Source of the DNA: a virus
Virus record (IMG/VR): IMGVR_UViG_3300032770_000017
Span: 1-64,000 of that record
DNA length: 64,000 nucleotides
Reading direction: 5' to 3' (one strand)
The first letter of the stretch is position 1, and each line of letters begins with the position of its first letter. The position numbers and the translations under genes were made by a program. The notes beneath the pieces are model-generated. The model ran no database searches, had not been told where the DNA came from, and was given only the letters and a program-made list of their open reading frames with translations. Shown here in pieces: positions 3,235-23,783 of the stretch.

Positions 3235-3238
3235 GGGC

Positions 3239-3267: not shown

Positions 3268-3273
3268 CAAGCC

Positions 3274-5964: not shown

Positions 5965-8022
5965 GTGGCAGGCTATGGCGCGATGCCCCGCCGCGCCCCG
6001 ACGCCAACCGCGCCGGTCGCGGCCCGTCCCGCCGCCCGCAGGCCCCCGGAGACGCCCCTTCAACGCCGGGCCCGGCTGAAGTCCGAAGCGGTCGCCAGCG
6101 CCCGCAACACCAAGCCCTCAGGCGCCCGGGCGCTGCTCAAGGCCAGCCTCAACACCCAAAGCCTGACGGCGGCTGCCATGGTGCTCGACGGCGGATTAGA
6201 CGGGCTGGAGGCGCCGCTGCCCAATGCCGTCACCCGTACCTGGCAGTGGACAGCGACATCATTTTTGGACACTGTGCCCGAGTTGTCCGCTGCTCGCATG
6301 TATGTCGGAAATGCTCTGGCCAGGGTACGGCTGAAGGTGGGCAAGCGCAACCCGGACGGCACCGTGGTCGACGCCTTTGACGGGGCCGAGCCGGTGGAAG
6401 GGCTCGACCAGGCGATCGCGGATGAGGCGGCCGACATCATCGCCACCATCCGCACAGAGATCGGCGGGCAATCGGAGCTGATGCGGTCCTATGCCCAAAA
6501 GATGTTCGTCAACGGCGAGCTTTATTTAGTGCCGCGCGACTCACCAGCGGGGATGACATTCGAGGTGCTCTCGACCATGGAACTGCTCCGGTCGGGCAAT
6601 GACTTCACCATCTTCCGAGGGCCGGGCTTCCCCACCGAGCCCCTGGACCCTAACGTCACGCCCATTCGGATCTGGCGGCCAGACGACCGCTACAACTTCC
6701 TGGCCACGTCCTCGGTGCGGTCGTGCCTGGGGATCCTCTCGGAGCTGGACGTGCTCACCCGCCTGGTGATGGCCTCCAGCCTCTCGCGTATGAGCCTGTC
6801 GGGCATGATCGTGCTGCCGGACTCGGCCGACTCGCCCATTGACGACGGCACCGGGGAGGACGGCCAGACCTCCGAGCAGATGAACCCGCTGCTCGCCGAC
6901 ATCATCGTGCAGGGGTGCAAGGCAGTGGACGACCCATCGTCGCCGGCGGCCTTCATGCCTTATATCGCGCAGGTCCCGGATGAGGCTGTGAACCTGATTC
7001 ACCACGTCCCATTCCAATCTTCTGGCGTTGAGCACATGGACCAGCGCGCCGAGGCCATCGGGCGATTGGCAATGGGACTGGACCTGCCGCCGGAAATAGT
7101 GCTAGGGCATAAAGATTCCACTTTTACAAATGCGATCCAGATCAGCGAGGACACCTTCAAGGTCTATTTGCTGCCAATGGTGCAATTGCTGGTCGACGCG
7201 GTGACCATCGCGGTGCTGTGGCCGGCAATGGCGAAGAACCGCGGGCTCGACCCGGACCGCGTCAAGGCGGCGGGCTATCCCGAGGAAATCCTGACCGTCG
7301 CCGTACACTACGACGCTTCCGACCTGATCTCCCACCCGGACAAGTCCAAGGAACTGGCCGACCTCTACGTCAAAGACCTCACCTTCTCCGCGGTCAGGAC
7401 GTCCGAGGTGCGGATGGCGTACGGGCTTGACCCGACCGAGACAGTGGACGACGACGAGAAGTCGGCACGGCTCGACACCTACCAGCGGGCCCACATCCGG
7501 GAGACCATCACCCCGCTGCCCGGCGGTCAGGTCGACCTCTCCCTCGGCGCGCAGGGAACCTCCATCGTCACCGGTACCACCGGGGCCACTGGCCCGGCGG
7601 AGGAGCCCCAGGGCGTCACCGCGGCCCTGGCGTCACAGATCGCCGGGGCGGCCGACCTGCTCATGGAACGCGTGGCCGAGCGACTGGGGTCCAAGGTTCG
7701 CTCGGCGGTGCGCAACAAGCCCGATGTGGCCGAGTTCTCAGTGATCGGCGGCGTCTCGAACGAGAACATCACCCGCGTCCTCGGGCGGGCGTCAGTCGAG
7801 CGGTTGGTGACCGATCTGCCGGCCATGCTGCGCACCGAGCTGGACGGGTTCGCACGGGCGGTGACGAAGATGGCGGCACGCGCCGGGCACCCATCGCCGA
7901 AGCGGCTGGCCGAGCATCTGTCGCTCAAGCTGGCCGACATGCTCGACGCCCATCTCTACGGGCAGGGCAAAGAGGCGAGCCCGGACGTGTTCGCCCCTCT
8001 GGTCGACGCCTCTCTCGCCTGA
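5965..8022 (+). CDS. Portal protein
   Basis: 685-residue portal that forms the dodecameric ring at the unique capsid vertex, docks terminase and later the neck. After a basic, Pro/Arg-rich N-terminus, the sequence carries features typical of actinophage portals: WQWTATSFLDTVPELSAARMYV, the central MDQRAEAIGRLAMGLDLPPE with LGHKDSTFTNA, and the long helical stem region SEDTFKVYLLPMVQLLVDAV. Start is the GTG at 5965; an ATG at 5983 is an alternative. Position after TerL and before a MuF-type protein supports the call. The C-terminal 150 residues are Gly/Ala-rich and helical. Confidence 0.88.
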   Translation: MAGYGAMPRRAPTPTAPVAARPAARRPPETPLQRRARLKSEAVASARNTKPSGARALLKASLNTQSLTAAAMVLDGGLDGLEAPLPNAVTRTWQWTATSFLDTVPELSAARMYVGNALARVRLKVGKRNPDGTVVDAFDGAEPVEGLDQAIADEAADIIATIRTEIGGQSELMRSYAQKMFVNGELYLVPRDSPAGMTFEVLSTMELLRSGNDFTIFRGPGFPTEPLDPNVTPIRIWRPDDRYNFLATSSVRSCLGILSELDVLTRLVMASSLSRMSLSGMIVLPDSADSPIDDGTGEDGQTSEQMNPLLADIIVQGCKAVDDPSSPAAFMPYIAQVPDEAVNLIHHVPFQSSGVEHMDQRAEAIGRLAMGLDLPPEIVLGHKDSTFTNAIQISEDTFKVYLLPMVQLLVDAVTIAVLWPAMAKNRGLDPDRVKAAGYPEEILTVAVHYDASDLISHPDKSKELADLYVKDLTFSAVRTSEVRMAYGLDPTETVDDDEKSARLDTYQRAHIRETITPLPGGQVDLSLGAQGTSIVTGTTGATGPAEEPQGVTAALASQIAGAADLLMERVAERLGSKVRSAVRNKPDVAEFSVIGGVSNENITRVLGRASVERLVTDLPAMLRTELDGFARAVTKMAARAGHPSPKRLAEHLSLKLADMLDAHLYGQGKEASPDVFAPLVDASLA

Positions 8023-8029
8023 TTGCCCG

Positions 8030-8058
8030 TTTACCCTCGTCCTCATAAAGGTTAGGAT
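8030..8058 (+). promoter_or_regulatory. Promoter with near-perfect dyad for the Lsr2-like gene
   Basis: TTTACC (8030-8035), 17-nt spacer, TAGGAT (8053-8058), 6 nt, ATG at 8065. TCCTCA (8040-8045) and TTAGGA (8052-8057) are 6 nt apart, one mismatch from the dyad at 3248-3267. Leaderless promoter plus candidate operator. Confidence 0.7.
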
Positions 8059-8064
8059 GAGGGC

Positions 8065-8391
8065 ATGGCAACCCAGAAAATCACCATCGTCAGTTGCGAC
8101 CTGTGCGCCCAAGAAGGATCGCCCCACGCCGTCACCTTCGACGGCGACAGCTTCGAGATCGACCTGTGCAAGAACCACGGCGACGGCCTGGCCGAAACGC
8201 TCGCATCGTGGGCGGCGGCCGGTCGCCCGGTGGCCAAGCGCGCCCCCCGCGCCCCTCGCCCGCGCCCGGCACGCCCCGACAACAGCGCCATCCGAACGTG
8301 GGCACGCTCCGAGGGCCACGACATCTCCCCCCGTGGCCGCGTCCCGGCTGAGATCGCCGCCGCCTACGAGGCCGCCCACGCCGTAGCCTGA
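8065..8391 (+). CDS. Lsr2-like DNA-binding protein with N-terminal zinc-finger-like head
   Basis: 108 residues. The C-terminal part (about 75-108, IRTWARSEGHDISPRGRVPA then EIAAAYEAAH) matches the DNA-binding domain of actinobacterial Lsr2, a nucleoid protein that silences AT-rich foreign DNA through an RGR-type AT-hook-like contact. The N-terminus is not the usual Lsr2 oligomerisation region. It has CDLC and CKNH, a possible zinc site, joined by a Pro/Arg/Ala-rich linker. Phage Lsr2-like proteins can interfere with host silencing or regulate phage genes. It is expressed from its own leaderless, dyad-bearing promoter, so autoregulation is possible. Confidence 0.75.
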   Translation: MATQKITIVSCDLCAQEGSPHAVTFDGDSFEIDLCKNHGDGLAETLASWAAAGRPVAKRAPRAPRPRPARPDNSAIRTWARSEGHDISPRGRVPAEIAAAYEAAHAVA

Positions 8392-8395
8392 GGGC

Positions 8396-8572
8396 ATGGC
8401 CCGCAGGCGCGCCACCTACCGCCACGGCGAGCGGCGCACCTACTGCGCCCTCGGCTGCCGCTGTGTGCGCTGCAGGGCCGCCAACGCCAAAGCCTCCCGC
8501 CACTACCGGGCAATGGCCCGGAGGCGCCAGCGGGCGCTACAGGGGGCTCTCACACTGGACCTGACGGCATGA
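8396..8572 (+). CDS. Small Arg-rich protein with clustered cysteines, 58 aa
   Basis: Starts 4 nt after the Lsr2-like gene; its stop overlaps the next ATG. Sequence is strongly basic with CALGCRCVRC, a compact Cys cluster, and YRHGERRTY. Probably nucleic-acid or zinc binding by composition. Unknown function. Confidence 0.5.
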   Translation: MARRRATYRHGERRTYCALGCRCVRCRAANAKASRHYRAMARRRQRALQGALTLDLTA

Positions 8573-8838
8573 CCAGACGCGCCAAGCCTGACCGGCTGCT
8601 CGATGTGGACGCCATTGAGCGCGACCGCTGGCAGGGCTCACGCGAACTGGTGCGCATCGGCGAGGTCTGCCCCGAGGGCCACGGCCCCTTGTTGGCGGTC
8701 TCCACCATTCAGGGCGTGCTCATCCGCCACGGCGGCTACGGGGCCCCGGTACGCACCACGGAACTGATCTGCCCGGAATGTTTCTGGTCAGTCGTCTCGG
8801 CAGTGTCCGAAGTCCATCCGCGCGAGTTCGTGGCGTGA
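8569..8838 (+). CDS. Hypothetical protein with CxxC-type zinc site, 89 aa
   Basis: The ATG overlaps the preceding stop. Contains GEVCPEGHGPLL and ELICPECFWSV, two Cys pairs spaced as in a zinc ribbon. Its stop overlaps the GTG start of the MuF-like gene, so it is coupled to head morphogenesis genes. Function unknown. Confidence 0.55.
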   Translation: MTRRAKPDRLLDVDAIERDRWQGSRELVRIGEVCPEGHGPLLAVSTIQGVLIRHGGYGAPVRTTELICPECFWSVVSAVSEVHPREFVA

Positions 8839-9653
8839 AGCAACGTCTCGTGGCCCAGGACCATGTCGGCCAGTGGTCGGCCGAGGTCAGCAAGGCCATG
8901 CACGCGGCCTCCGACCGCATGCGCCGCTCGGTAGGCCAGCAGTTGACCGCCCACGGCCTCACTTGGGACACGCCGGTCCGTTCGAGTCCGGCGACGTTGT
9001 TCGATCCGAGCGCCTGGGCTGCGGCGGTCAACGCGGAGGTTGTCCCAATCGCGCAGAAGGCGGCACGTGCCACGTGGAACGCGGCCAGGGGCAAGCTCCC
9101 TCAGCGGGCGGTGGCGGGCGCGCCCAACCCAGTCGACCGCCTGACGGCCATGATCGTCGACCGGGCCATGCAGGGCGGCTCGGGCATCTCCCGGCGCATG
9201 GGCACGCTGGCAGTCACGGCGGCAGGCGTGGACATGGACGCCGTGCGGGCGAAGATCAACGCCGCGCCCACGTTGCCGCTGCACCCGACCAACCAGCCGA
9301 CCGTCGGGACGGCCTATCAGCAGGCCTACCAGGCGCTGGACCAGCTCGTGGCCAGCACCACCGCCCACCTCTCCGACGCGGCCACTGCCATCTTGGGCGA
9401 GACGGCTCAGGCGAATCTCGGCGCCACCGTCACCCACACCTGGAATACGCAAGAGGACGACAAGGTGCGCGACTCGCATGAGGTGCTCGACGGCGTGGAC
9501 GCCGACGCTGGCGATTCGTGGACCAGCGGGCTCGGCAATGAACTGATGTACCCGGGTGATGGGCCGGATGAGGACGCCTGCAATTGCCGCTGCTTCCTGT
9601 CCACGAACGTGCTCGATCAGGCTGGCGAGGTCGAGTCCTCCGACGTGGCATGA
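8835..9653 (+). CDS. MuF-like minor head protein
   Basis: 272 residues from the GTG at 8835. The C-terminal third has the Phage Mu protein F signature: HTWNTQEDDKVRDSHEVLDG, then YPGDGPDEDACNCRCFLS, with the conserved D-x-x-R-x-S-H and the terminal C-x-C-R-C. MuF-family proteins are minor head components near the portal, often ejected. The N-terminal half is Ala-rich and helical. Position directly after the portal region is canonical. No toxin domain is fused at the C-terminus. Confidence 0.85.
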   Translation: MKQRLVAQDHVGQWSAEVSKAMHAASDRMRRSVGQQLTAHGLTWDTPVRSSPATLFDPSAWAAAVNAEVVPIAQKAARATWNAARGKLPQRAVAGAPNPVDRLTAMIVDRAMQGGSGISRRMGTLAVTAAGVDMDAVRAKINAAPTLPLHPTNQPTVGTAYQQAYQALDQLVASTTAHLSDAATAILGETAQANLGATVTHTWNTQEDDKVRDSHEVLDGVDADAGDSWTSGLGNELMYPGDGPDEDACNCRCFLSTNVLDQAGEVESSDVA

Positions 9654-9853
9654 GCCTCGGCCGCAAGGTGGCGCGCCGCATTCAGCCCGGCCGCGCCAAG
9701 CGCTGCCCGTGGTGTGTGCAGTGGATGACCCATTCGGTCCTCTCGTCCACCGGCCGCGTGCTGGCCGAGGGATGCGCGTTCCATTGCCGGGCCTACGCAG
9801 CAGGGGCGAAGATGCCGCCGTTGATGGCTACCGGACCCCGCTCCGTGCCATAG
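9650..9853 (+). CDS. Small Cys/His protein, 67 aa
   Basis: The ATG at 9650 overlaps the stop of the MuF-like gene. Basic N-terminus (RKVARRIQPGRAKR) then CPWCVQW and CAFHC, suggesting a zinc-binding fold. Unknown function. Confidence 0.5.
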   Translation: MSLGRKVARRIQPGRAKRCPWCVQWMTHSVLSSTGRVLAEGCAFHCRAYAAGAKMPPLMATGPRSVP

Positions 9854-9874
9854 GCGGATAGTCCTTCGGGCCTA

Positions 9875-9903
9875 TTGACTCCCATCCTAACCGAGGTTAC
9901 CGT
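9875..9903 (+). promoter_or_regulatory. Promoter for the LysM/hydrolase operon
   Basis: TTGACT (9875-9880), 17-nt spacer, TACCGT (9898-9903). The spacer carries ATCCTAA (9884-9890) followed after 6 nt by TTA, a degenerate version of the TCCTAA-N6-TTAGGA dyad. Unlike the leaderless sites, about 35 nt of leader and a purine-rich ribosome site (AGAGAGGGGG) precede the ATG at 9945. Confidence 0.6.
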
Positions 9904-9944
9904 CCCACGGAGCGTGGTGACGACCACGGTAAGAGAGGGGGCCA

Positions 9945-11303
9945 ATGGCGCCGCGGCACAGCAAACGGCAGCGAGCACGCGAGCGCTCCCGCCAGGCGCG
10001 GGCTGCGGCCCAGGCCATCGAACGGGAGAAGTGGGCCAACGGTGAGATCGACCGCCGCAACTCTCGCCTGCCCGCCCACTGGTCGCCGTGGGCCAAACTC
10101 CTCGGCGCCACCGCGGTGCCTGCCACGGTCGTGTTCGGCATGGCCGCGGGCGCGGCCGCGTCACCGACGGTGCAGATCGCGGCCTGCACTACGGTCAAGG
10201 CCCAACCGGGCGACACGGTCGCCGGGCTCGTCTATTCGTGGGGCCTCGACTGGCGGAACATGGGCGACGTCTGGCAGGTGGCACAGGCCAACCCGGCCAT
10301 GGCCGACCCCAACGTCCTCGCCGTGGGCCAGACTGTGACCGACTGCCCGGGACCGGCGCCGAGCGGAGTCGGTACCGGCCCGGGCATCACGCTCACTCCC
10401 GGGCAGTCGCTGATCACGCTGGAGGACGCGGCCACAGGGCACTGGACGTGGCCCATTCCCGTGTGGCACCTGGCCCAGCTCAATCCCGGGCTCATCGCGC
10501 CCTTCGGCCTGCCCGCGGGCACGGTCGTGCACCTGCTCGACGCTCAGCCTGCGACGAACTTTGCCCCGAGCACTTATAAGCCTCCCGTGGCCGCTCAGAT
10601 CGCCCCCAAGCCTGCGCCCACGCCAGTTCCGGCGCCGCGGCCTGTCCCTGCCCTGCCGCCTGCCACGCTGCCGCCTGATCCTCCCAAGATCGTGGCCGAG
10701 CCCGAGCAACCGGCCCCGCCACCGGTCGATCCGCCGACGACGCCTCCCCCCACGTCGCCGACCACCTCCGCGCCTGTCGCTGCCGTCGCCCCCTCCGGCG
10801 TGGTCGCGGCAGGCGCGGCGCCCACCTTCGGCGCTGAGCACCCCTCGGTGGCCGCACTGGGCGCCATGATCCATTCGGGCTACGCCGGCAATCCCGACCC
10901 TGCCAACCCTGCCGTGGTCGCCCACGACTTCGCCCAGATGGCCGTGGACGACCCCACGCTCACGGTCAAGGGCGACGCCTGGCTGATCGGCGGCTTCATC
11001 CAAGAGTCCGGCCTGTCGCCGGCCGCCGACAACCCCCGCGAGGGCGCGCACGGGCTCGGCCAGTGGCGTGATGCCTACGGACGCCACTGCGGTGACTCGG
11101 CCGATGGTGACGCCCAGTTGGCCTGTGCGGCCACGGAACTGGAGCTGCACTACCCGACCGCCCAGGCGGTGCTCAGCGACCCCAACGCCACGCCTGAGGC
11201 CCTCGACGGGGCAGAGAAGACGTACGAGGGCTACGGCAAGGCCGGGCGCCGCGGCGAGTACGCCCGGGGCATCGCCGGCCAGATCCTGGGGGCGCAGCCG
11301 TGA
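9945..11303 (+). CDS. Membrane-anchored LysM protein with lysozyme-like C-terminal domain
   Basis: 452 residues. A basic cytoplasmic tail (1-45) is followed by a hydrophobic helix (about 49-73), so the rest is probably exported. Residues about 80-190 look like two LysM-type peptidoglycan-binding units (VKAQPGDTVAGLVYSWGLDW...NPNVLAVGQTV and TPGQSLITLEDA...LPAGTVV). A long Pro/Ala/Thr linker (about 195-285) leads to a C-terminal domain with IGGFIQESGLSPAADN and HGLGQWRDAYGR, matching the phage tail lysozyme-like pattern (catalytic Glu in QES, then GLGQW). It probably acts on peptidoglycan. Location between head genes, not in the lysis or tail module, suggests a surface-acting moron. Confidence 0.7.
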   Translation: MAPRHSKRQRARERSRQARAAAQAIEREKWANGEIDRRNSRLPAHWSPWAKLLGATAVPATVVFGMAAGAAASPTVQIAACTTVKAQPGDTVAGLVYSWGLDWRNMGDVWQVAQANPAMADPNVLAVGQTVTDCPGPAPSGVGTGPGITLTPGQSLITLEDAATGHWTWPIPVWHLAQLNPGLIAPFGLPAGTVVHLLDAQPATNFAPSTYKPPVAAQIAPKPAPTPVPAPRPVPALPPATLPPDPPKIVAEPEQPAPPPVDPPTTPPPTSPTTSAPVAAVAPSGVVAAGAAPTFGAEHPSVAALGAMIHSGYAGNPDPANPAVVAHDFAQMAVDDPTLTVKGDAWLIGGFIQESGLSPAADNPREGAHGLGQWRDAYGRHCGDSADGDAQLACAATELELHYPTAQAVLSDPNATPEALDGAEKTYEGYGKAGRRGEYARGIAGQILGAQP

Positions 11304-11524
11304 AGCACCGTCGCCGCGACGACGAACTCGACGAGGCGCTCGACGTGCTCGGCGACGACCGGCCGCTGTTCGCCCATCACACGCCCGAGCCCCGGCCCAC
11401 CGAGCCCGAGATGATCCTGCCCGACCTGCCGCCGCCGCACGGCCGCAAGGCCCACCGCCGCAAGCGCCGTCTCGGCGACCTGACGATCCAACTGGGCGAC
11501 ACGCTTCGAGGAGGCCAACGATGA
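11300..11524 (+). CDS. Small charged hypothetical protein, 74 aa
   Basis: Overlaps both neighbours by 4 nt. Acidic N-terminus (DDELDEALDVLGDD), Pro-rich middle, then a basic KAHRRKRRLGDL segment. No membrane segment. It may be a cytoplasmic partner of the flanking membrane proteins; this is inference from position. Confidence 0.5.
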   Translation: MKHRRRDDELDEALDVLGDDRPLFAHHTPEPRPTEPEMILPDLPPPHGRKAHRRKRRLGDLTIQLGDTLRGGQR

Positions 11525-12291
11525 GCACGATCCCCTACGCCGCGGGCAAGCGCGGCCTCGGCCTGGGCGTCAAGGTCGCCGCGGTGGCGATGGCCGGGCT
11601 GGTCGGCTTCGCCGGGGTGGACAAGCTCACGGGCTGGAGCCCGGTGCACTTCGGCTCGGTGCACGTCCCGGTTCCCCACCTGCCGCCGCTGTCGCACACG
11701 ACGCAGGGGCCGACCAAGATCGAGATCGCCCTCCAGCAGGTGCGCAACCTCCACGACCTGTCGGTGTTGTCGGCGAGCTACGGCTGGTCCGAGGACGTCT
11801 CGTCCAGCCACCAGACGCTCGGGATCACCACCGGCCATTCTCGCCACCACTTCGCCGTGTCGGGCTCGGCGACGTTCTCGGTCGACTTCGACCAGGCGGC
11901 GTTCTCCTCGGGCCCGCAGTCGGTGACGTACTACCTGCCCGCGCCCGTCCCCGGCCCGGTGGCGATCGACCCGACGAGCGTGAAGGAGATCAACTCCTGC
12001 TCGCACGACCTCGGGCCGGCGCACATCAGCCGCTCGTGTGGCGTGGACCCGGTGGCGCTGGAGGAGCAGGGCCAGGCGTCAATGGCCAAGACGGCAGCCG
12101 CCGACACCGCCCGCATCGACCAGGCGCGCGGCGACGTGGCCACCCTGCTCGCCTGCATCGTCCAACCAACAGGCTGGAGCGTCTCGGTGGCCTGGGACGA
12201 CCAGACCAAGCCGCCCGCCGCCGCCTCGTGCAGCAAGCCCCTACCCCAGCGCCTTGTTCCCTACGCGCCCACCACGACCGGAGCACCGTGA
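11521..12291 (+). CDS. Membrane-anchored exported protein (DUF4230-like)
   Basis: 256 residues with one N-terminal hydrophobic helix (about 15-32, GVKVAAVAMAGLVGFAG) and a large extracytoplasmic domain. The domain begins EIALQQVRNLHDLSVLSASY and continues with beta-rich sequence, reminiscent of DUF4230 proteins. That assignment is tentative. It ends with two Cys-containing segments and a Thr/Pro tail. Overlapping starts and stops place it in the operon of membrane proteins from 9945 to 12872. Confidence 0.55.
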   Translation: MSTIPYAAGKRGLGLGVKVAAVAMAGLVGFAGVDKLTGWSPVHFGSVHVPVPHLPPLSHTTQGPTKIEIALQQVRNLHDLSVLSASYGWSEDVSSSHQTLGITTGHSRHHFAVSGSATFSVDFDQAAFSSGPQSVTYYLPAPVPGPVAIDPTSVKEINSCSHDLGPAHISRSCGVDPVALEEQGQASMAKTAAADTARIDQARGDVATLLACIVQPTGWSVSVAWDDQTKPPAAASCSKPLPQRLVPYAPTTTGAP

Positions 12292-12872
12292 CCATCTACG
12301 ACCAGGACGAACCGACGATCGCCTACTGGGAGGAGTGTGACTTTCCCGGTAATAATATTCGGGCAAAAGTCACACCCCGCTCTGGCCAGCACTTTCGCGG
12401 CCAATCGCGCCATCCGCTGGCCAAGGGCGTCGCCATCGGCCTCCTGATCGCCGTAGGGCTGGCCGGGCTCATGTTCGGCGCCGTCTACGCCGTGAGGCCC
12501 CAGCACCCGGCTGTGGTGCGCCTCAGGGCCGTCTCAACGCCTCCTACGACTATCACCCCTCCCACGACCGCCGCGGCGCCCACGACGGCCGTACAGGCGG
12601 CTACCACGACCACTGTGCAGCCCGGGCCTCCGATGACGATCATGGCCAGCGCCCAGGCGGTGCCCAACCCGGTGATGACCAAGGTCCCCGGCGTGATCTA
12701 CACGGCCCAGGTCTACCCGGGCGCGCCGCAGATGGGCTTCGTGGCTGGTGACCACCCGGGCGTGGTGGACCCCGATGGCCGGAGCGTCTCGCAGTACCTG
12801 GCGGCCATGGGCCTGCCGGCCGGGACGCGGGTGGCCGTGGTGGGCTCGGTGGTCGTCGGCTACGTGCCCTGA
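12288..12872 (+). CDS. Single-pass membrane protein with Thr/Pro-rich exported part
   Basis: 194 residues from the GTG at 12288. A cytoplasmic N-terminus of about 45 residues precedes a clear transmembrane helix (about 48-68, AIGLLIAVGLAGLMFGAVYA). Outside is a Thr/Pro/Ala linker and a short C-terminal globular segment (VYPGAPQMGFVAGDHPG...GTRVAVVGSVVVGYVP). Unknown function. The first 30 codons span a striking DNA hairpin (12335-12375) with AT-rich loop and codons unlike the rest of the gene. Confidence 0.55.
   Translation: MTIYDQDEPTIAYWEECDFPGNNIRAKVTPRSGQHFRGQSRHPLAKGVAIGLLIAVGLAGLMFGAVYAVRPQHPAVVRLRAVSTPPTTITPPTTAAAPTTAVQAATTTTVQPGPPMTIMASAQAVPNPVMTKVPGVIYTAQVYPGAPQMGFVAGDHPGVVDPDGRSVSQYLAAMGLPAGTRVAVVGSVVVGYVP
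12335..12375. repeat. Long inverted repeat with AT-rich loop inside a CDS
   Basis: GTGTGACTTT (12335-12344) is the exact reverse complement of AAAGTCACAC (12366-12375). The stem continues inward with CCCG against CGGG with one bulge, leaving an 11-nt loop GTAATAATATT. This is strikingly AT-rich for the region. It could be an RNA hairpin early in the mRNA or a protein-binding palindrome. Confidence 0.7.
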
Positions 12873-12915
12873 GATTTCCCCTCAAGTCCACGCCTGGCCG
12901 GACGATAGATAGGGC

Positions 12916-13146
12916 ATGACCCTCACCCGATTCCTCAACCGCCGGGACTCGTCCTTCGACACACAGGACGGCCCCCTGACTCAGCGTGACCTCGCCAGCC
13001 GCGGCTTCGGTTCGCTCGACGACCGCCTTGCTCCGGTGCTGCCCGAGTCCGTGCGCCTCGACGATGCCATGGCATCCGAGGAGCCCATGGACCTGTCCGT
13101 GATCGTGCCCCGTCCCGCCGGCCGCCACTACCGGACCGAGTCATGA
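12916..13146 (+). CDS. Hypothetical protein, 76 aa
   Basis: Soluble, acidic protein (TQRDLASRGFGSLDDRLA) with no recognised domain. The 43 nt upstream hold a weak AT-rich element (GATAGATA) 4 nt before the ATG that might be a -10, but no -35 is visible. Its stop overlaps the next ATG. Confidence 0.5.
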   Translation: MTLTRFLNRRDSSFDTQDGPLTQRDLASRGFGSLDDRLAPVLPESVRLDDAMASEEPMDLSVIVPRPAGRHYRTES

Positions 13147-13340
13147 CACTTCAGATCACGACCGATATGTCCGAAGGCAAGCGCGCTTGCCTCAAGGAAG
13201 GCCCGAAGGCGATCTGCCCCGGTTGCCGCACCGGTGTGCCCCTGCGCGACCACGTTGGCGCCGTGGGTTACGCCGTCTTCTTCTGCCCGAACGGGTGCGA
13301 GCCATTCGGCCCGGGCGTCGAGCGGCGTAAGACCCCTTGA
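13143..13340 (+). CDS. Small zinc-ribbon-like protein, 65 aa
   Basis: Contains ICPGCRTGVPL and FFCPNGCEPF, a CxxC...CxxxC arrangement consistent with one bound zinc. Coupled by overlap to the preceding gene. Its last codons overlap the -35 of the next promoter. Unknown function. Confidence 0.55.
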   Translation: MTLQITTDMSEGKRACLKEGPKAICPGCRTGVPLRDHVGAVGYAVFFCPNGCEPFGPGVERRKTP

Positions 13341-13364
13341 CTTATTCCTAATAATCGTTAGGAT
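13337..13364 (+). promoter_or_regulatory. Promoter with dyad; near-leaderless
   Basis: TTGACT (13337-13342), 16-nt spacer, TAGGAT (13359-13364), 9 nt to the GTG at 13374. TTCCTAA (13345-13351) and TTAGGAT (13358-13364) form the same 6-nt-spaced dyad as at 3248-3267. Confidence 0.7.
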
Positions 13365-13373
13365 CAGTGCTCC

Positions 13374-13559
13374 GTGACCACATTCGCATTCGAGCACCAG
13401 GGCTACCGCTTCCGCGTGAGCCCGCAAGGCCAGGACGGCCTACGCGTCGATGTCTGGCGCGAGGACGACGGCCACAAAGGCGCGCATTGGGAGCGACTGC
13501 CCGAACTGCGCCCCGATGCAGCAAGCGCCGTGGAAATGGCGCGCAAGTCAGTCGCATAA
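13374..13559 (+). CDS. Hypothetical protein, 61 aa
   Basis: Begins 9 nt after a TAGGAT -10 box. Beta-rich N-terminus (FAFEHQGYRFRVSPQGQD) and a short C-terminal helix. Unknown function. It is followed after 28 nt by the LPXTG surface protein gene, probably on the same transcript. Confidence 0.55.
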   Translation: MTTFAFEHQGYRFRVSPQGQDGLRVDVWREDDGHKGAHWERLPELRPDAASAVEMARKSVA

Positions 13560-13587
13560 TCACCCAGCCAAGGATTGGAGCCTTTCA

Positions 13588-14352
13588 ATGCACTTCCCCC
13601 GTACCCTCGCCCGTCTGGCCCTGGTCAGCGGCCTCTCACTGCTCGGCCTGGTCATCGCCACCGCCGGCCCGGCATCTGCCCACATCGGCCAGATCACCAT
13701 TACCTGCGACACCATCACCGTCCACTGGTTCAATTTCCCGGGCGGCGCCAACTCGGCCACGGTGACGATCAACGGCACGCCCCAGACGGTGGGCTGGAGC
13801 GGCTCGTCGGACACGTTCAGCACCTCCCGGCCGCCTGTAGCGGTCACGGTGTCCTCGGCGTGGACAGCCGACGGCGGCGGCTCGGCTGGCCCGGTGAGCA
13901 ACTCGGGCGACGACTGCCACTTCCCCACGACCACCACCGCAGCACCCACCACCACGGCCGCGCCGACGACAACGACTGAGGCGCCGACCACAACGACCGA
14001 GCAGGTGACCACCACCACCCAACCGGCCGGCTGCGACGACGAGTGCCCCACGACCACGCTGGCGCCTCCTGCGGGCTGCGCGCATGATGAGGTCTGCCCG
14101 GGCACCTGCATCGGCCCTCCGGTGGCCTGCAACCCTCAGCCGACCACTACCATGCCTCCCACGACCGCGGCACCGACCACCCAAGCTCCGACGACGACCA
14201 AGGCGCCTGCCGTGCTCGCCATCCAACCACCCGCTGGTCCCGCCCTGCCGATGACCGGGAGCAGCCCTGTGCTGCCAGCGGTCGGTAGCGGGCTGGTGGC
14301 GTTGGGCCTGATCTCGCTGGGCGCGAGCAAGATGCGGCGGTCGAAGGCGTGA
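13588..14352 (+). CDS. LPXTG-anchored, Ig-like cell-surface protein
   Basis: 254 residues with a complete sortase-substrate architecture. Sec signal peptide (1-31, LVSGLSLLGLVIATAG then ASA) leads to an Ig/FnIII-like segment (about 32-105, ITITCDTITVHWFNFPGG...SATVTINGTP). A Thr/Pro/Glu linker with cysteine-containing islands precedes the C-terminal LPMTG (about 220-224), hydrophobic helix and basic tail MRRSKA. A host class A-type sortase would cleave between T and G and attach it to the wall. No virion role is obvious; it probably changes the surface of the infected or lysogenised cell. Ribosome site is weak; the ATG at 13588 gives a perfect signal peptide. Confidence 0.8.
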   Translation: MHFPRTLARLALVSGLSLLGLVIATAGPASAHIGQITITCDTITVHWFNFPGGANSATVTINGTPQTVGWSGSSDTFSTSRPPVAVTVSSAWTADGGGSAGPVSNSGDDCHFPTTTTAAPTTTAAPTTTTEAPTTTTEQVTTTTQPAGCDDECPTTTLAPPAGCAHDEVCPGTCIGPPVACNPQPTTTMPPTTAAPTTQAPTTTKAPAVLAIQPPAGPALPMTGSSPVLPAVGSGLVALGLISLGASKMRRSKA

Positions 14353-14618
14353 TGACTGAGCCGTGCAGGCGTGACTGTTCGTCGTTCCGAGGATGGACGA
14401 TTGAGCACTACCACGCCACCGACCGGCCATCGATCGTGGTGTTCCACACGCCCGAACAGCCGGGAGTGCTCGCAACCATGCACGAGGCGTGGGGCACTGA
14501 CGCCTGTGGCGAGACGGCGGTGTTCCCTACGGCAATAGAGGCCGTCAGGCACGCCAAGCTCCGCTATGGAGCGACCGTGACTCTCGCGGAGGAAGGGCCA
14601 CTTCCTGACCTGACCTAG
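14352..14618 (+). CDS. Hypothetical protein, 88 aa
   Basis: The ATG overlaps the preceding stop (TGATGA); a GTG one codon earlier is possible. Sequence RDCSSFRGWTIEHYHATDRP and a C-terminal helix-strand (AIEAVRHAKLRYGATVTL). No recognised domain. Confidence 0.55.
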   Translation: MTEPCRRDCSSFRGWTIEHYHATDRPSIVVFHTPEQPGVLATMHEAWGTDACGETAVFPTAIEAVRHAKLRYGATVTLAEEGPLPDLT

Positions 14619-14666
14619 TCGCACGGCGTACGCTTCCCGAGCGTGACCCCTCGCCCAGGAGGCCAG

Positions 14667-17186
14667 ATGCGACCGTCCCGCTGGCAGCGCCCGATCTTCG
14701 GGCCGTTCCGGAGGCAGGCCCACACGGGCGTGCCAGCCGATCACTTCCGACCCGCTGCGGAGATGACCGCCTATGGCGATGGGGTCAACGTCCTCGTCGC
14801 CCACGGTGAGCATTCCCTCGCCTCACTGGTGGCAGCGGCCTCAGGCGGCACCGACTGGCCGATTGCGGATCGCGATACCGCTTGGGATGGCGCAGCGGCA
14901 GCAAAGGATTGTCAGAAGTGGGCTTCTTCCGATGGCTCCGGTGACAAGGACAAGATCGATTTCACGAAGCTGGGCCGGTGCTTTTTCTGGAAAGACGACT
15001 CCGACGGCGACCCCTCCAATCTTGGAGATTTCAAGCTCGGCTTCGTCGCCAACGATGGCGGGACGATGAAGGCCATCCCCAAGGGCATCTTCGCCGTGGG
15101 CGGCGTCCTTTCCGGGGCGCGCGGCGGTGCCGACCTCGGGGGCGACGAGACGGCGGTCAAGGCCAAGGTGGCAGCGTGGTACCGCAAGCTGGCGGCCAAA
15201 TTCGATGACCCGTCGATCAAGGCCCCGTGGCTGCCCGACAAGGAGTCGAGCGCCAAGAGCAGGATCCTCGCCGCAGTGGACGTGCTGCCAGGCTTCCAGG
15301 CCTCCGAGGCGGCCACCAGCCTGATCGTCGCCATCGACGCGGCGGTGGACGAGCTGATGGAGGAACTGGGCATCGGGGACGACGACGGCGAGGACCAGAT
15401 GTCCGCGGCGGCCGCCGTGGCGCTGCGCCGGGCCCAGTTGGCGTTGGCCAAGGCCGAGATGGGCCCCGACCCCCTCGCGTCGGTGCACCCGCCCTTCACC
15501 GGCCGCCACAGCCATCCCCACTCGGCGTTCGGCCAGCAGGGCGGCGACGCCACCCACAGCCACAGCCACTCCCACAACGGCGACGCCACCCACGTCCACG
15601 CCCACGGGGCCATGGCGGAACTGCCGGAACGGTCAGGGCCGTCGCTGCACAACCTGAGCATCGAGGAGCGCCGACGGGTTGACGGGTCCAATGAGATCAC
15701 CGACCCTGCGGAGTTGGCCGCTCTCGTGGCGAGCGCCTTTGAGGCACGCGGCGGTATCGAGGCATGGTCGGCCCTACGTGCCTCTCTGGGACTCACCGCG
15801 GCGACCGGGGCGGACGGCAAGGTAGTCCCTGCCGCTTGGCACGGCTATGACGCGGTCGAGGGCATTCGCACTGACGATGGCCGAGAACTGTGTGCGGAGG
15901 CGTGCCTGTTCCCTGACCTGCCTGTGAGCATCCGGCTTCTCCTCGAAGATCAGGGCGGCCACTGGGGTGCGGTCACAGCGGGCCGCGTGGACACGATGGA
16001 ACGGGTGCCGCTCGGTCCTATCAGTGCGATCTACTCCGAGGGCATGTTCGGGTCAGACCCGAATGGGCAGCTCGCCGAGTTGATGGTGGCGGAACAGACG
16101 CAGCGGTTCCTTTCTATTGACCCTCGGCCTGACTTCGTCGGCGAGGTGGTATCGGTCACGATCTCAACCGGCGATGGCGATGGGTATTTCGGGGAACTGG
16201 ACGATGTGGCGGTCGACACCTGGCTGCGGATCCAGTCCTGCACCATCGGGGCCGTGACCATCGTCCCCATCCCGGCCTATCCCCAGTGCGTCATCACGCT
16301 TGCCGATCAGGCGCTCCCAGAGGCTCCCATTGCCATTGCGTCGGCACCTCCCGGCTTGCCGGCGGTGACTGCCGCTGGAGGCCCTGTAAGACCCTCTCGC
16401 AAGGCTTTCGACAACCCCGGGTTCTATGTGGGCGATCCTCGTCTGGTGCGCCAGAAGTCTGGCGACTACGCGTGCCCAGCCACGGTCAGCGAGGACGGCT
16501 CGCGCTGTTGGGGCCATCTTGCTGCCTGGAAGACGGCGCATACGGCCGGCGTGCGTGACGAGTACGGCCAACCACGCAAGCCCCCTCGCTCCAAGACCAA
16601 CTACGCCTACTTCCTCACAGGCGTTGTCGTCTGCGAGGACGGTAGCGAGGTCCCCGTGGGCAATCTGACCATGGGGACCGGACACGCCAGTGTGTACGCG
16701 CCGCTCCCCGACGTGCTCGCCCACTATGACGGCGGTTACGGTGCTGTATGCGTTGCGGACGTGACGGTGGGTGAGGACGATTTCGGCATTTGGTTCGCAG
16801 GGGCCATGCGTTCGGAGCTGACCGATGAGCAACTCAGGGAGTTCAGAGCGACGAACCTGTCGGGGGACTGGCGCAACCTTGGCGGCAACCTCGAACTGGT
16901 GGCCGTGCTTGCTGGCGTCCCTTCCCCCGGGTTCCCGATCGCGCGCCGAGCGGTGACGGCCGCTGGGACTCCCGTTTTCGCAGATGGCGAGGCGATGATC
17001 GCGGCCATGAACGGCGATCGCTGCCTCGCTCTTGTGGCGGCAGGGGTGGTGCAGAGGATCGATCCGTTGGAGCGACTGGCGGCTTTGGAGCGGGCCCATG
17101 AAATTCTATGGGCCGATTACCAGTCTCTCGCGGCTCGGGTACGCCCCATCGAACTGGAGCGATTGCGGGCTCAGTCGGGTCTGTGA
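14667..17186 (+). CDS. Capsid maturation (prohead) protease, large actinophage type
   Basis: 839 residues from the ATG at 14667, chosen because AGGAGG lies 5 nt upstream; a GTG at 14643 is in frame. The region around residues 440-560 (GPISAIYSEGMFGSDPNG, SCTIGAVTIVPIPAYPQC) matches the end of the U35-like prohead protease fold, with the conserved G-A-x-x-x-P-x-P-A. The C-terminal 250 residues (DGSRCWGHLAAWKTAHTAG, CVADVTVGEDDFGIWFAGA, NLSGDWRNLGGNLELVAVL) are the extension seen in many actinophage capsid proteases. A His-rich insert lies at about 280-315 (HSHPHS, HSHSHSHNGD, HVHAHG). The last about 30 codons have atypical AT-rich codons next to the HNH gene. Confidence 0.75.
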   Translation: MRPSRWQRPIFGPFRRQAHTGVPADHFRPAAEMTAYGDGVNVLVAHGEHSLASLVAAASGGTDWPIADRDTAWDGAAAAKDCQKWASSDGSGDKDKIDFTKLGRCFFWKDDSDGDPSNLGDFKLGFVANDGGTMKAIPKGIFAVGGVLSGARGGADLGGDETAVKAKVAAWYRKLAAKFDDPSIKAPWLPDKESSAKSRILAAVDVLPGFQASEAATSLIVAIDAAVDELMEELGIGDDDGEDQMSAAAAVALRRAQLALAKAEMGPDPLASVHPPFTGRHSHPHSAFGQQGGDATHSHSHSHNGDATHVHAHGAMAELPERSGPSLHNLSIEERRRVDGSNEITDPAELAALVASAFEARGGIEAWSALRASLGLTAATGADGKVVPAAWHGYDAVEGIRTDDGRELCAEACLFPDLPVSIRLLLEDQGGHWGAVTAGRVDTMERVPLGPISAIYSEGMFGSDPNGQLAELMVAEQTQRFLSIDPRPDFVGEVVSVTISTGDGDGYFGELDDVAVDTWLRIQSCTIGAVTIVPIPAYPQCVITLADQALPEAPIAIASAPPGLPAVTAAGGPVRPSRKAFDNPGFYVGDPRLVRQKSGDYACPATVSEDGSRCWGHLAAWKTAHTAGVRDEYGQPRKPPRSKTNYAYFLTGVVVCEDGSEVPVGNLTMGTGHASVYAPLPDVLAHYDGGYGAVCVADVTVGEDDFGIWFAGAMRSELTDEQLREFRATNLSGDWRNLGGNLELVAVLAGVPSPGFPIARRAVTAAGTPVFADGEAMIAAMNGDRCLALVAAGVVQRIDPLERLAALERAHEILWADYQSLAARVRPIELERLRAQSGL

Positions 17187-18411: not shown

Positions 18412-19010
18412 GCGATAACGACCGCGTCGATGAGGCAGGGAATCCGCCTATCCCTCACGACGCGGACGACCATCGCATCCCCGCCCGCAAGGCCGAATGC
18501 TGCCAGGCGCACGCCGACGAGCTGGGCCGACTCCCAATAGGTTGGTGTGGGCCGGGGTGCCTGAGAAGCAGGCTGCCTGATCCGTCACCGGGCGACAAGC
18601 TGCCGTTACCCTTCGCGGCCATGCCCACTCAACCCGTTGAGCACTGGGCCTCGGAGCCCGAAGCCCACGATTATCCGGCCGCTCTCGACTACCTGACCCT
18701 GATGATGCCTGCCAAGCAGGCCAAGGCCGCGGTCAGGGCGCTGAAGAAGGCGCCGCTCAGCCACCGTAAGGCCAAAGACCTACTCAGGGCGTCCGGCTTG
18801 GCCGCGTTGCCCAAGACGAATGTGCACGTCGCCAAAGACCTCGCCAAGGTGGCGGGAGGGACGAAGTTGTCGCCCGTCCTCATTGTGCGCGACGACACAT
18901 CGGTCGGGTCATTGCTGCTTATTGCCGACGGCTACCATCGCATTTGCGCCAGTTACATAATCGATGAGAACGCCGAAATCCCCTGTCGCCTTATCTCGTC
19001 AAAGGCGTGA
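18408..19010 (+). CDS. ParB-like domain protein
   Basis: 200 residues from the ATG at 18408 (overlapping the preceding stop). The N-terminal 60 residues have a Cys/His cluster (AECCQAH...WCGPGC). The C-terminal domain (about 85-200) has RKAKDLLRASGL, HVAKDLAKVAGGTKLSPVLIV, and IADGYHRICASYIIDENAEI then PCRLI. This combination matches ParB-like/Srx-fold domains, where the G-x-x-R/H-x-x-A segment binds nucleotide. Such stand-alone domains occur in bacteria and phages with little known function. It could bind a nucleotide or act as an ATP-dependent nuclease. Confidence 0.6.
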   Translation: MSDNDRVDEAGNPPIPHDADDHRIPARKAECCQAHADELGRLPIGWCGPGCLRSRLPDPSPGDKLPLPFAAMPTQPVEHWASEPEAHDYPAALDYLTLMMPAKQAKAAVRALKKAPLSHRKAKDLLRASGLAALPKTNVHVAKDLAKVAGGTKLSPVLIVRDDTSVGSLLLIADGYHRICASYIIDENAEIPCRLISSKA

Positions 19011-19447
19011 CCTCTAACCGCGATGAAATCGTGTTTGGCGGGCTTGATGGCCTGACCAGTGCCCTCGGCGTGATGGCCGGCGCCTACCTCGCCAACGCCC
19101 GGGCCAAGACGGTGCTGATCACCGGGCTCGGGCTCGCCATCGCCGCGGCGGTGTCCATGGCCGGCGGTGAGGCCCTGAGCGACGAGGAGGCCGATGGGCG
19201 GATCGTGCGGGCGGCATACATGGGCGGCGCTACCTTGGTCGGGTCGTTCCTGCCGATCGCCGGGTTCATCTTCGACCGCCGTGCCGGGCTGGTGTTCTGC
19301 ATCGTGATCACGGTGTGCGTGGGCGCCACTGTTGCCCATCTGCGCCCCGGCGCCTGGTGGCCATCGATCGTCAAGACCTTCGCCGTACTGGCGGTGGCGG
19401 CTGGGCTATCGGTGGTGGCAGCGGTCGCGATGGGGGCCACGGGTTAG
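19007..19447 (+). CDS. VIT1/CCC1-like small membrane protein
   Basis: 146 residues with four or five hydrophobic helices. The start, DEIVFGGLDGLTSALGVMAG, matches the first helix of VIT/CCC1 iron-manganese transporters (VFGLxDGLxSxLGxxAG), and SMAGGEALSDEE matches the conserved MxxGEYxS segment that follows. Full VIT proteins are about 230 residues. The cytoplasmic metal-binding helical hairpin is missing here, so this is a shortened form. The family exports Fe2+ or Mn2+ from the cytoplasm; whether this version transports is unknown. Its start overlaps the ParB-like gene. Confidence 0.65.
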   Translation: MTSNRDEIVFGGLDGLTSALGVMAGAYLANARAKTVLITGLGLAIAAAVSMAGGEALSDEEADGRIVRAAYMGGATLVGSFLPIAGFIFDRRAGLVFCIVITVCVGATVAHLRPGAWWPSIVKTFAVLAVAAGLSVVAAVAMGATG

Positions 19448-19516: not shown

Positions 19517-20572
19517 TTGCGCAGATTCCTACTGGCCGCCATTGCCGCTGTGCTCGTCCTCTCTGCCTGCTCGGGGGGCACGAAGGGAAAGCCGCCCGTC
19601 CCGGCTGTGTCAGGCACCGTTGTCGGCGTATCTCTTTCCGCAAATGCCGCCAATAGGTACATGGCTGCAGGCGCGGTGTGGAACGTCTTTTGCCCGAACA
19701 AGCTGACCTCCTCGCAGATCGCCTCCAATGAGGTCCACCTCGTTTGCGCCGTCCCGGCGACGACCACGACGGCGCCCGCGACCACCACAACGGTGGCTCC
19801 CACCACGACTCGGCCAGCGACAACCACGACGTTGCCCGGCGGCACGACGACCGTGCCCGCGACCACGACGACCACCGTTCCGGCCACCACCACGACGGTC
19901 CCGACCAGTGGCACCTGTACGAGCCCGGTGTGGTCGAGCAGCGACGCTCAGGCCACCGACAACACCGACAGCGCCGGGTACTGGTGGGTGAACAACGACG
20001 CCTGGTCGGGCAGCCACGGCCCGCAGACGATCAACGTGTGCAGCGCGTCGTCTTGGTACGCGGTGTCCAACCAGACCGATCAGCAAGGCGCGGTTGAGAC
20101 CTATCCCGACACCGAGTATTTCGTCGGCGGCGGCGGTGGGGGCCACACGACCAAGACCATCTCGCAGTTCGCCAGCATCACTTCGACGTTCTCCGAGGCG
20201 TTCCCCACCACGACCGGCTTGTCGTGGGACGCGGGCTACGACCTGTGGACGAACAACTGGACGAATGAAACGATGATCTGGAACCAGTGGGTCGGCGACC
20301 CGGGCTACTGGCCAGGACAGGCGACCATCGCCGTGACGCTCGATGGCGTGCCCTACCACTTCCTCGACAACGGCGGCGAGCTGCTGTTCTTCAGGGACAC
20401 GCAGGTCGCCTCGGGCTCCGTGGACATCCTCGCTGCCTACCAGTGGGAGGTCGCCCACGGCTACGCCAAGGCCACCGACATCCCGACCAATCTGGAGTAC
20501 GGCGTGGAGGTCGTGGGCACGAACGGTGCGACCACATTCCCGCTGACCGGTCTGACCTTCAGCCTGTCGTGA
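19517..20572 (+). CDS. GH12-like secreted lipoprotein glycosidase
   Basis: 351 residues from a TTG start (GGAG about 10 nt upstream). Lipoprotein signal with lipobox VLSAC, lipidated Cys18; residues 19-78 may be LysM-like; a Thr/Pro linker covers about 80-130. The C-terminal domain (about 135-351) has the jelly-roll pattern of glycoside hydrolase family 12: GYWWVNNDAW near 155, AYDLW-like GYDLW near 241, NETMIW with Glu251 at the nucleophile position, and YGVEVVG with Glu331 at the acid/base position. It would be a beta-glucan or related polysaccharide hydrolase held on the cell or virion surface. The match is from motif recognition only; substrate is unknown. Confidence 0.65.
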   Translation: MRRFLLAAIAAVLVLSACSGGTKGKPPVPAVSGTVVGVSLSANAANRYMAAGAVWNVFCPNKLTSSQIASNEVHLVCAVPATTTTAPATTTTVAPTTTRPATTTTLPGGTTTVPATTTTTVPATTTTVPTSGTCTSPVWSSSDAQATDNTDSAGYWWVNNDAWSGSHGPQTINVCSASSWYAVSNQTDQQGAVETYPDTEYFVGGGGGGHTTKTISQFASITSTFSEAFPTTTGLSWDAGYDLWTNNWTNETMIWNQWVGDPGYWPGQATIAVTLDGVPYHFLDNGGELLFFRDTQVASGSVDILAAYQWEVAHGYAKATDIPTNLEYGVEVVGTNGATTFPLTGLTFSLS

Positions 20573-21356: not shown

Positions 21357-21518
21357 TCACTCCGCGCCATTGACGCGTTGTGGTATCTATCTGAGGGACC
21401 GCCCGACGTAGTTGGACGGTCGCAGCACCTCCGGTCCATAGGTGCCGGGTGGACGAGCCGACGCCGCCACAGGCAGGCGCATCCCGTTCCGACCGCGCCC
21501 AGAACCGGAGGACAACCC
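21357..21518 (+). promoter_or_regulatory. Leader region upstream of the major capsid gene
   Basis: 162 nt without a gene. TTGACG at 21370-21375 is a good -35, and TATCTATCT at 21384-21392 is AT-rich, but the spacing between them is wrong for a standard promoter. GACCG (21397-21401) and CGGTC (21417-21421) can pair. GGAGG at 21507-21511 is the ribosome site for the capsid start. A capsid promoter is plausible here but not pinned down. Confidence 0.4.
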
Positions 21519-23783
21519 GTGGACGCACTGCACATCAACCGATTCGCTGCGTTCGCCGCCGATGGCTCGATGACCAGCCTGGTGGCCGAGGGGCTGCCCG
21601 AATGGCCCACCGACGGCGCCCTCGGAGCGATCGCCGATGCCGACCTGTACGCGATGGAGCAGGCGTACCTCGCCGAGTTCGCCGCCATCGAAGCCGACCC
21701 GTCCCGCCCGGTGGGCGACGCCGTGGCCCTCGCCGAGCACGTTCGTGCCCTGCGCGACGAGGCCGAGCGCCGTATGGCCGCCGAGCCCGTCCCTGAGCCC
21801 ACGGCCGAGGAACTGGCCGCCCAGGCCGCAGCCGATGAGGCCGCGGCCGCGCTCGCCGCCGAGCGGGAGGCCCAACTGGCCGCCCTGCGCGCCGAGATCA
21901 CCCCCGAGCCCGGTGCGGGCGAGACCATCCCCGAGGGCACGGCGTTCAGCCGCGAAGACCTCGTGGCCGCCGTCACCGCCGGTGCCGAAGCCGCGGCACG
22001 GGCCATCGTGCCCGCCGTCACCGCTGCCATCGCCCAGGCTGCCCCGGTCACCGAGCCGGCCCCTGGCGTCACGATCACCCGCATGCGGGCCCGTGACCTC
22101 GGTGGCTATCGCCCCGACCACCTCGCCCCGGCGCCAGCCAACGGCGCCGAGCGCAGCCGGTTCACAGCCAAGGTCGTCTCAGCCACCGACTCGTCCGCGG
22201 TCGGCCTCGGCGGCGAGATCCAGACCATGGACCAGCTCGTGGACATCTTCACCGAGAAGGCTCTCGCCATCGGGCGGGCATCCGGTGTGGACAACGAGCA
22301 GGTCAAGTTGGCCTCGATCAAGCTCGACCGGGTGCCGCCGGAGATGGACCTGCGCGGTATCACCGACGGCCGGGAACTGCGCCGCAAGGTGCTGTCGGTC
22401 ATCGGCCCCGAGGCCGTTGGCGTCAACCCGTGGACCGGCCGTGAGGCCCCCATCGGGCGCGGCGGTGTCGTGCACGTCGGAGAGGGCCTGGTCGCATCCG
22501 GCGGGTTGGCCGCACCGGTCGAGCCGTACTACAACCAGCTCGTCATCGCCCAGGGCGCACGCCCTGTGCAGGCGGCGTTGCCGACCTTCGTGGCCGAACG
22601 AGGCGGGATCAAGCTCACGCTGCCTCCCTCCATCGGCACGATCGCGGCGGCCACCACGCCCGGGCAGTACACCGACGGTGTGACCAACACCGATACCTCG
22701 CTGGTGTCAGCCACGGCCACCTTCACCGCCGCCGATGCCGGCTCGTACATCTCCGGCTCGCCGACGATCTTCGCCGAGGGCACGATCATCGCCAGCGTCA
22801 CCAACTCGACGACGGTGGTCCTGTCGGCGGCCACGCTCACGACCACCACGGGCGTGACCTTCGTGATCCAGCGGCGCAACCCTTACAACCTCGGGCCTGC
22901 CGTTGGTGTCGTCACCGCCGCCCAGGACGCCGCAGGGCCGCCGAACGTGATCAAGTACACCTACGACGTGCCCGTCGGCACGCAGAACGAGTACGACGTC
23001 TATTCGGTCTACACGTCGCTGCAGTTCGGCAACCTGACCGGGCGCACCTTCCCCGAGCAGGTGGAGGCCAACATCCGCGTCGCCGACGCGCTGGCCGCCC
23101 GGACCGCGGACACGCAGATGCTGAACCTCATCAGCCTCTACTCGACGCTGTTCACCGGGGCCAAGACGTTCGGCACGGCACGCCAACTGCTCGCCCAGTT
23201 GGGCCACATGGGAGCGGTGTACCGCAACTCCGAGCGTATGGACCCGAGCGCCGTGCTGCGGGTGCTGCTGCCGGCGTGGGCGATCAACGCCATGCGGGGC
23301 GACTACATCGCCTCGTTCATCGGTGGCGGCGACGCCTGGGGCCTCTCCGACGACGAGATCGCCGGGTGGCTGGCCGACAACCACTTCATGCTCAGCCTCT
23401 ACCAGGACGGCCCGACGGACATCTCGCAGCTCTTCGTCACCACCGGCTTCTCGGGGGCGACGGGCAACGGGACCACGCTCGGGACGCCGATCGCCATCCC
23501 CGACTACCCGGGCACTGGCGCGACCACCTCGTTCCGCACGCAGGTGATCTCGTTCATGTGGGCCGAGGGGACGTGGCTCGGGCTGACCACCGGGGAACTG
23601 AATTTGGGCCTAGTTCGGGATAGCATACTCAATTCACAGAACCGATACCGTCAATTCTCTGAAGTGTGGGAGACTCCCGCTTTCGTGGGAACTCGCACGC
23701 TGCGGGGAGAGCACACGGTTGCGGCAGACGGCAGCTACGGCGCCGCCGTGTCGGTCACTCTTGGGGCCGGCAACGGGCTCTAG
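21519..23783 (+). CDS. Major capsid protein with N-terminal scaffold-like region and inserted beta module
   Basis: 754 residues from the GTG at 21519 (GGAGG 7 nt upstream). Residues about 1-190 are Ala/Glu-rich and helical, like a fused delta/scaffold domain normally removed by the prohead protease. The remainder has an HK97-type organisation (EPYYNQLVIAQGARPVQAAL, SLQFGNLTGRTFPEQVEANI, MLNLISLYSTLFTGAKTFGT, PSAVLRVLLPAWAINAMRGD). A module of about 68 residues (nt 22671-22872) interrupts it and resembles inserts in three other virion proteins. Codons in nt 23600-23700 (ATA, CTA, TCA, CGA) are unlike the rest of the gene and lie next to a LAGLIDADG gene. Confidence 0.82.
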   Translation: MDALHINRFAAFAADGSMTSLVAEGLPEWPTDGALGAIADADLYAMEQAYLAEFAAIEADPSRPVGDAVALAEHVRALRDEAERRMAAEPVPEPTAEELAAQAAADEAAAALAAEREAQLAALRAEITPEPGAGETIPEGTAFSREDLVAAVTAGAEAAARAIVPAVTAAIAQAAPVTEPAPGVTITRMRARDLGGYRPDHLAPAPANGAERSRFTAKVVSATDSSAVGLGGEIQTMDQLVDIFTEKALAIGRASGVDNEQVKLASIKLDRVPPEMDLRGITDGRELRRKVLSVIGPEAVGVNPWTGREAPIGRGGVVHVGEGLVASGGLAAPVEPYYNQLVIAQGARPVQAALPTFVAERGGIKLTLPPSIGTIAAATTPGQYTDGVTNTDTSLVSATATFTAADAGSYISGSPTIFAEGTIIASVTNSTTVVLSAATLTTTTGVTFVIQRRNPYNLGPAVGVVTAAQDAAGPPNVIKYTYDVPVGTQNEYDVYSVYTSLQFGNLTGRTFPEQVEANIRVADALAARTADTQMLNLISLYSTLFTGAKTFGTARQLLAQLGHMGAVYRNSERMDPSAVLRVLLPAWAINAMRGDYIASFIGGGDAWGLSDDEIAGWLADNHFMLSLYQDGPTDISQLFVTTGFSGATGNGTTLGTPIAIPDYPGTGATTSFRTQVISFMWAEGTWLGLTTGELNLGLVRDSILNSQNRYRQFSEVWETPAFVGTRTLRGEHTVAADGSYGAAVSVTLGAGNGL
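22671..22872 (+). repeat. Recurrent beta module, copy 1 (in major capsid protein)
   Basis: Encodes TDGV...SATATFTAADAGSYIS, IASVTNSTTVVLSAATL, GVTFVIQ. This pattern, (V)TDGV-x-SATAxFTxxDxG-x-IASVTNSTTV-x-S-x-GVTxxI, recurs in the proteins at 24715, 26110 and 60272. Confidence 0.75.

Follow-up and report, generated by a model that had tools for sequence, protein, structure and literature searches.

A predicted host-sortase substrate encoded by a moron-like gene in the structural region of a probable actinobacteriophage

The locus and its genomic setting

The stretch of DNA analysed here (the window) covers positions 1-64000 of a virus record that is 80,207 bases long. The record is that of an uncultured siphophage, and that it represents a phage genome is beyond doubt: genome annotation places in the window the large terminase (5-1234), portal (5965-8022), head morphogenesis (8835-9653), maturation-protease-like (14643-17186), major head (21378-23783), major tail (26110-27057), and tape measure (46662-49307) genes and an amidase-type endolysin (56254-57054), with recombination and replication genes past the window end in the 80-kb record. 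The maturation-protease-like protein carries an N-terminal His-rich stretch (HSHPHS...HSHSHSHNGDATHVHAHG) that is kept across the clade and is perhaps metal-binding. A non-exhaustive search of the annotated genes turned up neither an integrase nor a repressor. Relatives of the portal among cultured phages belong mostly to phages of Mycobacterium, Gordonia, Microbacterium, Arthrobacter, and Streptomyces, and a clade-specific pattern found terminase relatives in only two bacterial genomes, an Actinomycetes MAG and a Streptomyces. Our best guess is that the host is probably an actinobacterium, an assignment made at the phylum level.

The gene under study is an open reading frame on the plus strand at 13588-14352 that encodes a protein of 254 aa (the LPXTG protein). 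Its ATG is preceded by a purine-rich stretch, AAGGATTGGAG, its coding score is good, and its GC3 of 0.86 matches that of the phage's main genes. An alternative start at 13450 (300 aa) was rejected, as it would move the signal peptide off the N-terminus and overlap a small ORF at 13374-13559. Read by eye, residues 1-31 (13588-13680) form a predicted Sec signal peptide with cleavage at PASA|H; the N-terminal sequence MHFPRTLARLALVSGLSLLGLVIATAGPASA|H has the hydrophobic core of such a signal, in line with the original prediction, and there is no lipobox. A head domain of about 82-83 residues follows (13681-13926), predicted by a low-confidence model to be all-beta and with one Cys close to either end. 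The head is succeeded by a Thr/Pro-rich stalk (13927-14241), where the long Thr linker originally described is indeed found: 105 aa with 31% Thr and 19% Pro, split by a six-cysteine segment (GCDDEC...CAHDEVCPGTC...AC, at about 14032-14132) that the earlier description had left out. The protein ends in a putative cell-wall sorting signal (14245-14349), consisting of LPMTG (residues 220-224; 14245-14259) and a 30-residue tail in which hydropathy over 16 residues reaches a maximum of 1.97 and which closes with the basic end KMRRSKA.

The sorting signal exceeds chance

That the C-terminus constitutes an LPXTG sorting signal with hydrophobic tail and basic end was the central claim of the original prediction, and the claim holds. 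When the whole protein was shuffled 200,000 times, a single shuffle satisfied the C-terminal sorting-signal rule; 17 of 200,000 did so when only the last 45 residues, and thus the C-terminal composition, were shuffled. Among 7,300 six-frame ORFs from phage and prophage loci totalling 1.2 Mb the LPXTG gene was the sole match to the rule; a looser version had no match in a further 1.35 Mb, and in about 170 related phage loci we found no LPXTG-type tail other than that of this gene. The NCBIfam profile LPXTG_anchor barely reached its cut-off (15.9 bits with in-frame neighbours, E 0.003), with a match that falls exactly on the sorting signal and has no second place in the 80 kb, and this profile is unspecific, passing in 9 of 14 control genomes, some of them Gram-negative. 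The Pfam profile Gram_pos_anchor did not match the LPXTG protein.

The head domain has no detectable relative

The head had been called Ig-like, a label that we could not establish. No family in Pfam, PHROG, NCBIfam, or PDB matched it, and the sole structural model, a single-sequence AlphaFold2 prediction of the head alone, is of low confidence (pLDDT 52), its six beta strands being compatible with an Ig-like sandwich without amounting to proof. Homologues of the whole protein were absent from viral contigs, genome contigs, and the phage collection, and searching PDB, plasmids, and phages with the head by itself returned only chance-level matches. Weak matches to the head in 396 Actinomycetota genomes were likewise set aside as chance: the best had an E value of 3e-4 per genome, which is not significant over 396 genomes, and the matching ORFs lack a stalk or LPXTG tail.

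A three-gene cassette behind a predicted host-type promoter

The LPXTG gene appears to be the middle member of a three-gene cassette. The first gene, a small ORF of 61 aa on the plus strand (13374-13559; ORF list and coding score), ends 28 nt before the LPXTG gene starts, and the start of the last, of 89 aa (14349-14618, plus strand; ORF list), overlaps the LPXTG gene at its stop codon. Searches for relatives of the two small ORFs gave no match. Upstream of the cassette lies a predicted host-type promoter, TTGACT-16-TAGGAT (13337-13364, plus strand), recognised by the recurrence of its pattern in the genome, and the start codon of the first gene is 9 nt past the -10 element. Allowing at most one mismatch in the TTGAC-like -35, we found nine GTTAGGAT sites with such a -35 in the 80 kb, the 13337 promoter among them, at 1248, 3260, 8051, 13357, 62164 (minus strand), 63022, 70709, 72987, and 76772; in the window, the pattern TTGACN-(16-18)-TAGGAT extends over 1226-1255, 3239-3267, 8030-8058, and 13337-13364. 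All nine sites are intergenic, compared with 13% of the genome being noncoding by our own gene calls, and Markov-simulated genomes contained 0-3 sites with a mean of about 1. In its strict form, the pattern was not found in the loci of eight relatives. The promoter contains a palindrome, CCTAA-N6-TTAGG, and a palindrome-like CCTAATN4-5GTTAGG occurs at both 3250 and 13347, as a possible operator.

Housekeeping promoters of the likely hosts have the form TTGACN / TAGRRT. Because the element resembles these and also precedes genes near the replication genes, the natural reading is that the cassette is predicted to be transcribed by the host RNA polymerase, possibly early. At six of the nine sites the distance from the -10 element to a start codon is 6-9 nt, a spacing that would yield leaderless or nearly leaderless mRNAs. 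Leaderless mRNAs are common in actinobacteria, and the case of Mycobacterium smegmatis has been treated in PMC7148126.

An accessory hot spot between portal and protease

The cassette sits at the end of a 6.6-kb interval between the portal and maturation protease genes (8023-14642) where comparison with relatives reveals an accessory-gene hot spot. In four relatives that are further removed (L094-L097), the protease gene comes immediately after the portal gene. Members of the nearer clade (L127, L129-L131, L134, L135) carry the head-morphogenesis gene and a varying set of other genes between portal and protease: by sequence inspection, L130 has a deformylase-like protein (3065-3706), L129 a membrane protein, and L131 a secreted protein with kinship to the lipoprotein encoded at 19517-20572 in the window. 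Inspection of L135 also revealed a 518-aa protein resembling TROVE/Ro (8029-9585), near or in the hot spot. In the window, the interval holds, besides the head-morphogenesis gene, several envelope proteins and the LPXTG cassette: region 9945-12872 encodes a LysM and Phage_lysozyme2 protein with an N-terminal membrane segment, then a DUF4230-like membrane protein and, as the neighbour of the cassette, a plain Thr-linker membrane protein (12288-12872).

None of the relatives compared was seen to carry an LPXTG gene at its locus, which makes it an accessory gene that is either recent or quick to change. It resembles a moron. That label describes its behaviour, and the strict definition fits only in part: the gene is an accessory between conserved phage genes that is missing from relatives, and its own promoter is present as a sequence pattern at 13337, whereas no terminator-like site was found in 12800-14760.

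Anchoring would depend on the host's sortase

No sortase is encoded in the 80-kb record, so that a host enzyme must act on the signal. In Actinomycetota, the probable phylum of the host, 205 of 246 sampled genomes (83%) have a sortase above the Pfam cut-off, as have the two bacterial genomes in which terminase relatives were found. Class E sortases, prevalent among actinobacteria of soil and water, favor LAXTG (PMC5148588), so anchoring here would call for a host enzyme of the LPXTG type. Taken alone, anchoring by host sortase is probable, and the LPXTG protein is most likely a host-sortase substrate displayed on the infected cell. Covalent display through the host's sortase, as originally proposed, thus survives as regards a phage-encoded sortase substrate, given a signal far above chance, a clear phage context, the lack of a phage sortase, and the frequency of sortases in the phylum, and falls short as regards the Ig-like identity of what is displayed.

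Alternative explanations

Display may be real and yet serve the host, with the gene a captured or host-like surface protein for adhesion, aggregation, or attachment and the phage at times carried in living cells. The signal peptide, Thr-rich stalk, and LPXTG tail do look host-like, the cassette has its own promoter, and the staphylococcal prophage protein SasX offers a precedent (PMC10232760). However, lysogeny is unsupported by the non-exhaustive search of the annotated genes, and the head had no host homologue in our searches; we consider this reading rather unlikely, though it fares best among the alternatives. A second explanation, which we regard as improbable, is that the protein is held in the membrane by its C-terminal helix, with the head shown from there and LPMTG either fortuitous or unused by the host. 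The failure of Gram_pos_anchor to match, the unspecific and borderline LPXTG_anchor hit, the LAXTG preference of the class E sortases of many actinobacteria, and the adjoining Thr-linker membrane protein (12288-12872) speak for this account, but an LPxTG correctly spaced from a helix and basic end is rare even at the same C-terminal composition, as the 17 in 200,000 shuffles indicate. Finally, small beta-sandwich domains are frequent head decorations and the gene sits amid head genes, from the morphogenesis protein to the maturation protease, but a virion component produced with the structural genes, such as a head decoration, is very improbable for a protein with a signal peptide at one end and a sorting signal at the other, encoded behind its own promoter and missing from all relatives that share the head genes.

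Proposed mechanism and purpose

Sortase-anchored display remains the explanation that we favor, with the LPXTG gene read as a moron that lies among the structural genes of an actinobacteriophage and has a host-type promoter of its own. The three-gene cassette is predicted to be transcribed from the 13337 promoter by the host RNA polymerase, after which the signal peptide would route the LPXTG protein through Sec and the hydrophobic tail and basic end would retain it in the membrane. From the form of the signal, a host sortase is predicted to cleave LPMT|G and to couple the Thr to a peptidoglycan precursor. The Thr/Pro stalk, perhaps O-glycosylated, may then raise the beta-rich head above the wall, where the head could alter what binds to the infected cell. 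The likeliest benefit would be a hindrance to adsorption, either by rival phages or by sibling virions that meet infected cells or debris; aggregation or adhesion is the second candidate. The purposes originally suggested, namely receptor masking, aggregation, and exclusion of other phages, are hypothetical. Display before lysis is made more plausible by the host-type promoter that fronts the cassette.

Confidence in this scheme differs among its parts. Display has good support, and the function is inferred. The combination of sortase-anchored display with adsorption blocking as its leading, but not certain, purpose we hold to be about evenly balanced between right and wrong, and adsorption blocking as the main benefit is put forward tentatively. 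It is speculative that the protein is an early, host-promoter-driven sortase substrate forming a covalent wall barrier against rival phages or against the loss of progeny on debris, which would amount to superinfection exclusion anchored by sortase instead of lipid.

Relation to known systems

The closest precedent is SasX of Staphylococcus aureus, which a PhiSPbeta-like prophage encodes and which is anchored to the cell wall (PMC10232760). Both are phage-encoded surface proteins for the host's own sortase, and both are accessory to the phage. SasX, however, belongs to a Firmicutes prophage and acts in aggregation and colonisation, whereas the LPXTG gene lies in the structural region of an actinobacterial-type phage in which no sign of lysogeny was seen. 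No sequence kinship between the two surfaced in the family searches. The Ltp-type lipoproteins of Streptococcus thermophilus phages are phage-encoded surface proteins able to exclude phages (PMC3952083); like the LPXTG protein they are exposed on the host surface and come from moron-like genes, and a shared purpose is possible. Unlike it, they are lipid-anchored in the membrane, while the LPXTG protein has a sorting signal and no lipobox, and exclusion in our case is only putative. In its order of signal peptide, head, stalk, and sorting signal the protein resembles the Thr/Pro-stalked LPXTG surface proteins of actinobacteria, from which it differs in being phage-encoded and in having a head without a detectable relative in 396 genomes of the phylum.

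The literature on phage-encoded LPXTG proteins and sortases, as far as it was covered, yielded SasX and streptococcal genomes and no actinobacteriophage example. Genes for sortase substrates are rare in phages, though not without precedent; notable here are the place in an actinobacteriophage structural region, the gene's own promoter, and a head of no known family. Most of the known phage-encoded gatekeepers of Gram-positive infection are lipoproteins or membrane proteins; sortase-anchored exclusion in an actinobacteriophage, if true, would provide a further route that is covalent and long-lived, and an idea on phage competition that can be tested. The portal-protease hot spot is a place to seek more host-modifying genes in this group of phages.

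Other envelope and surface genes

The envelope-protein neighbours of the cassette, together with an island encoding a glycosyltransferase and an aminotransferase, suggest a phage that reworks the surface of its host. The island (28190-36916), in the tail region and partly on the minus strand, encodes methyltransferases, a FemAB/GNAT-like protein, a DegT aminotransferase, and a glycosyltransferase of 1057 aa, and likely modifies surface or virion glycans. The lipoprotein at 19517-20572 has an LSAC lipobox and a long Thr linker, its C-terminal domain weakly matches PRK06215, and its homologue in the portal-protease hot spot of L131/L098 carries a signal peptide; it is a second phage-encoded envelope protein, perhaps with a role in superinfection exclusion. 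Region 19007-19447 encodes a VIT-family membrane protein (VIT1, Pfam E 6e-12), whose cellular family transports iron or manganese.
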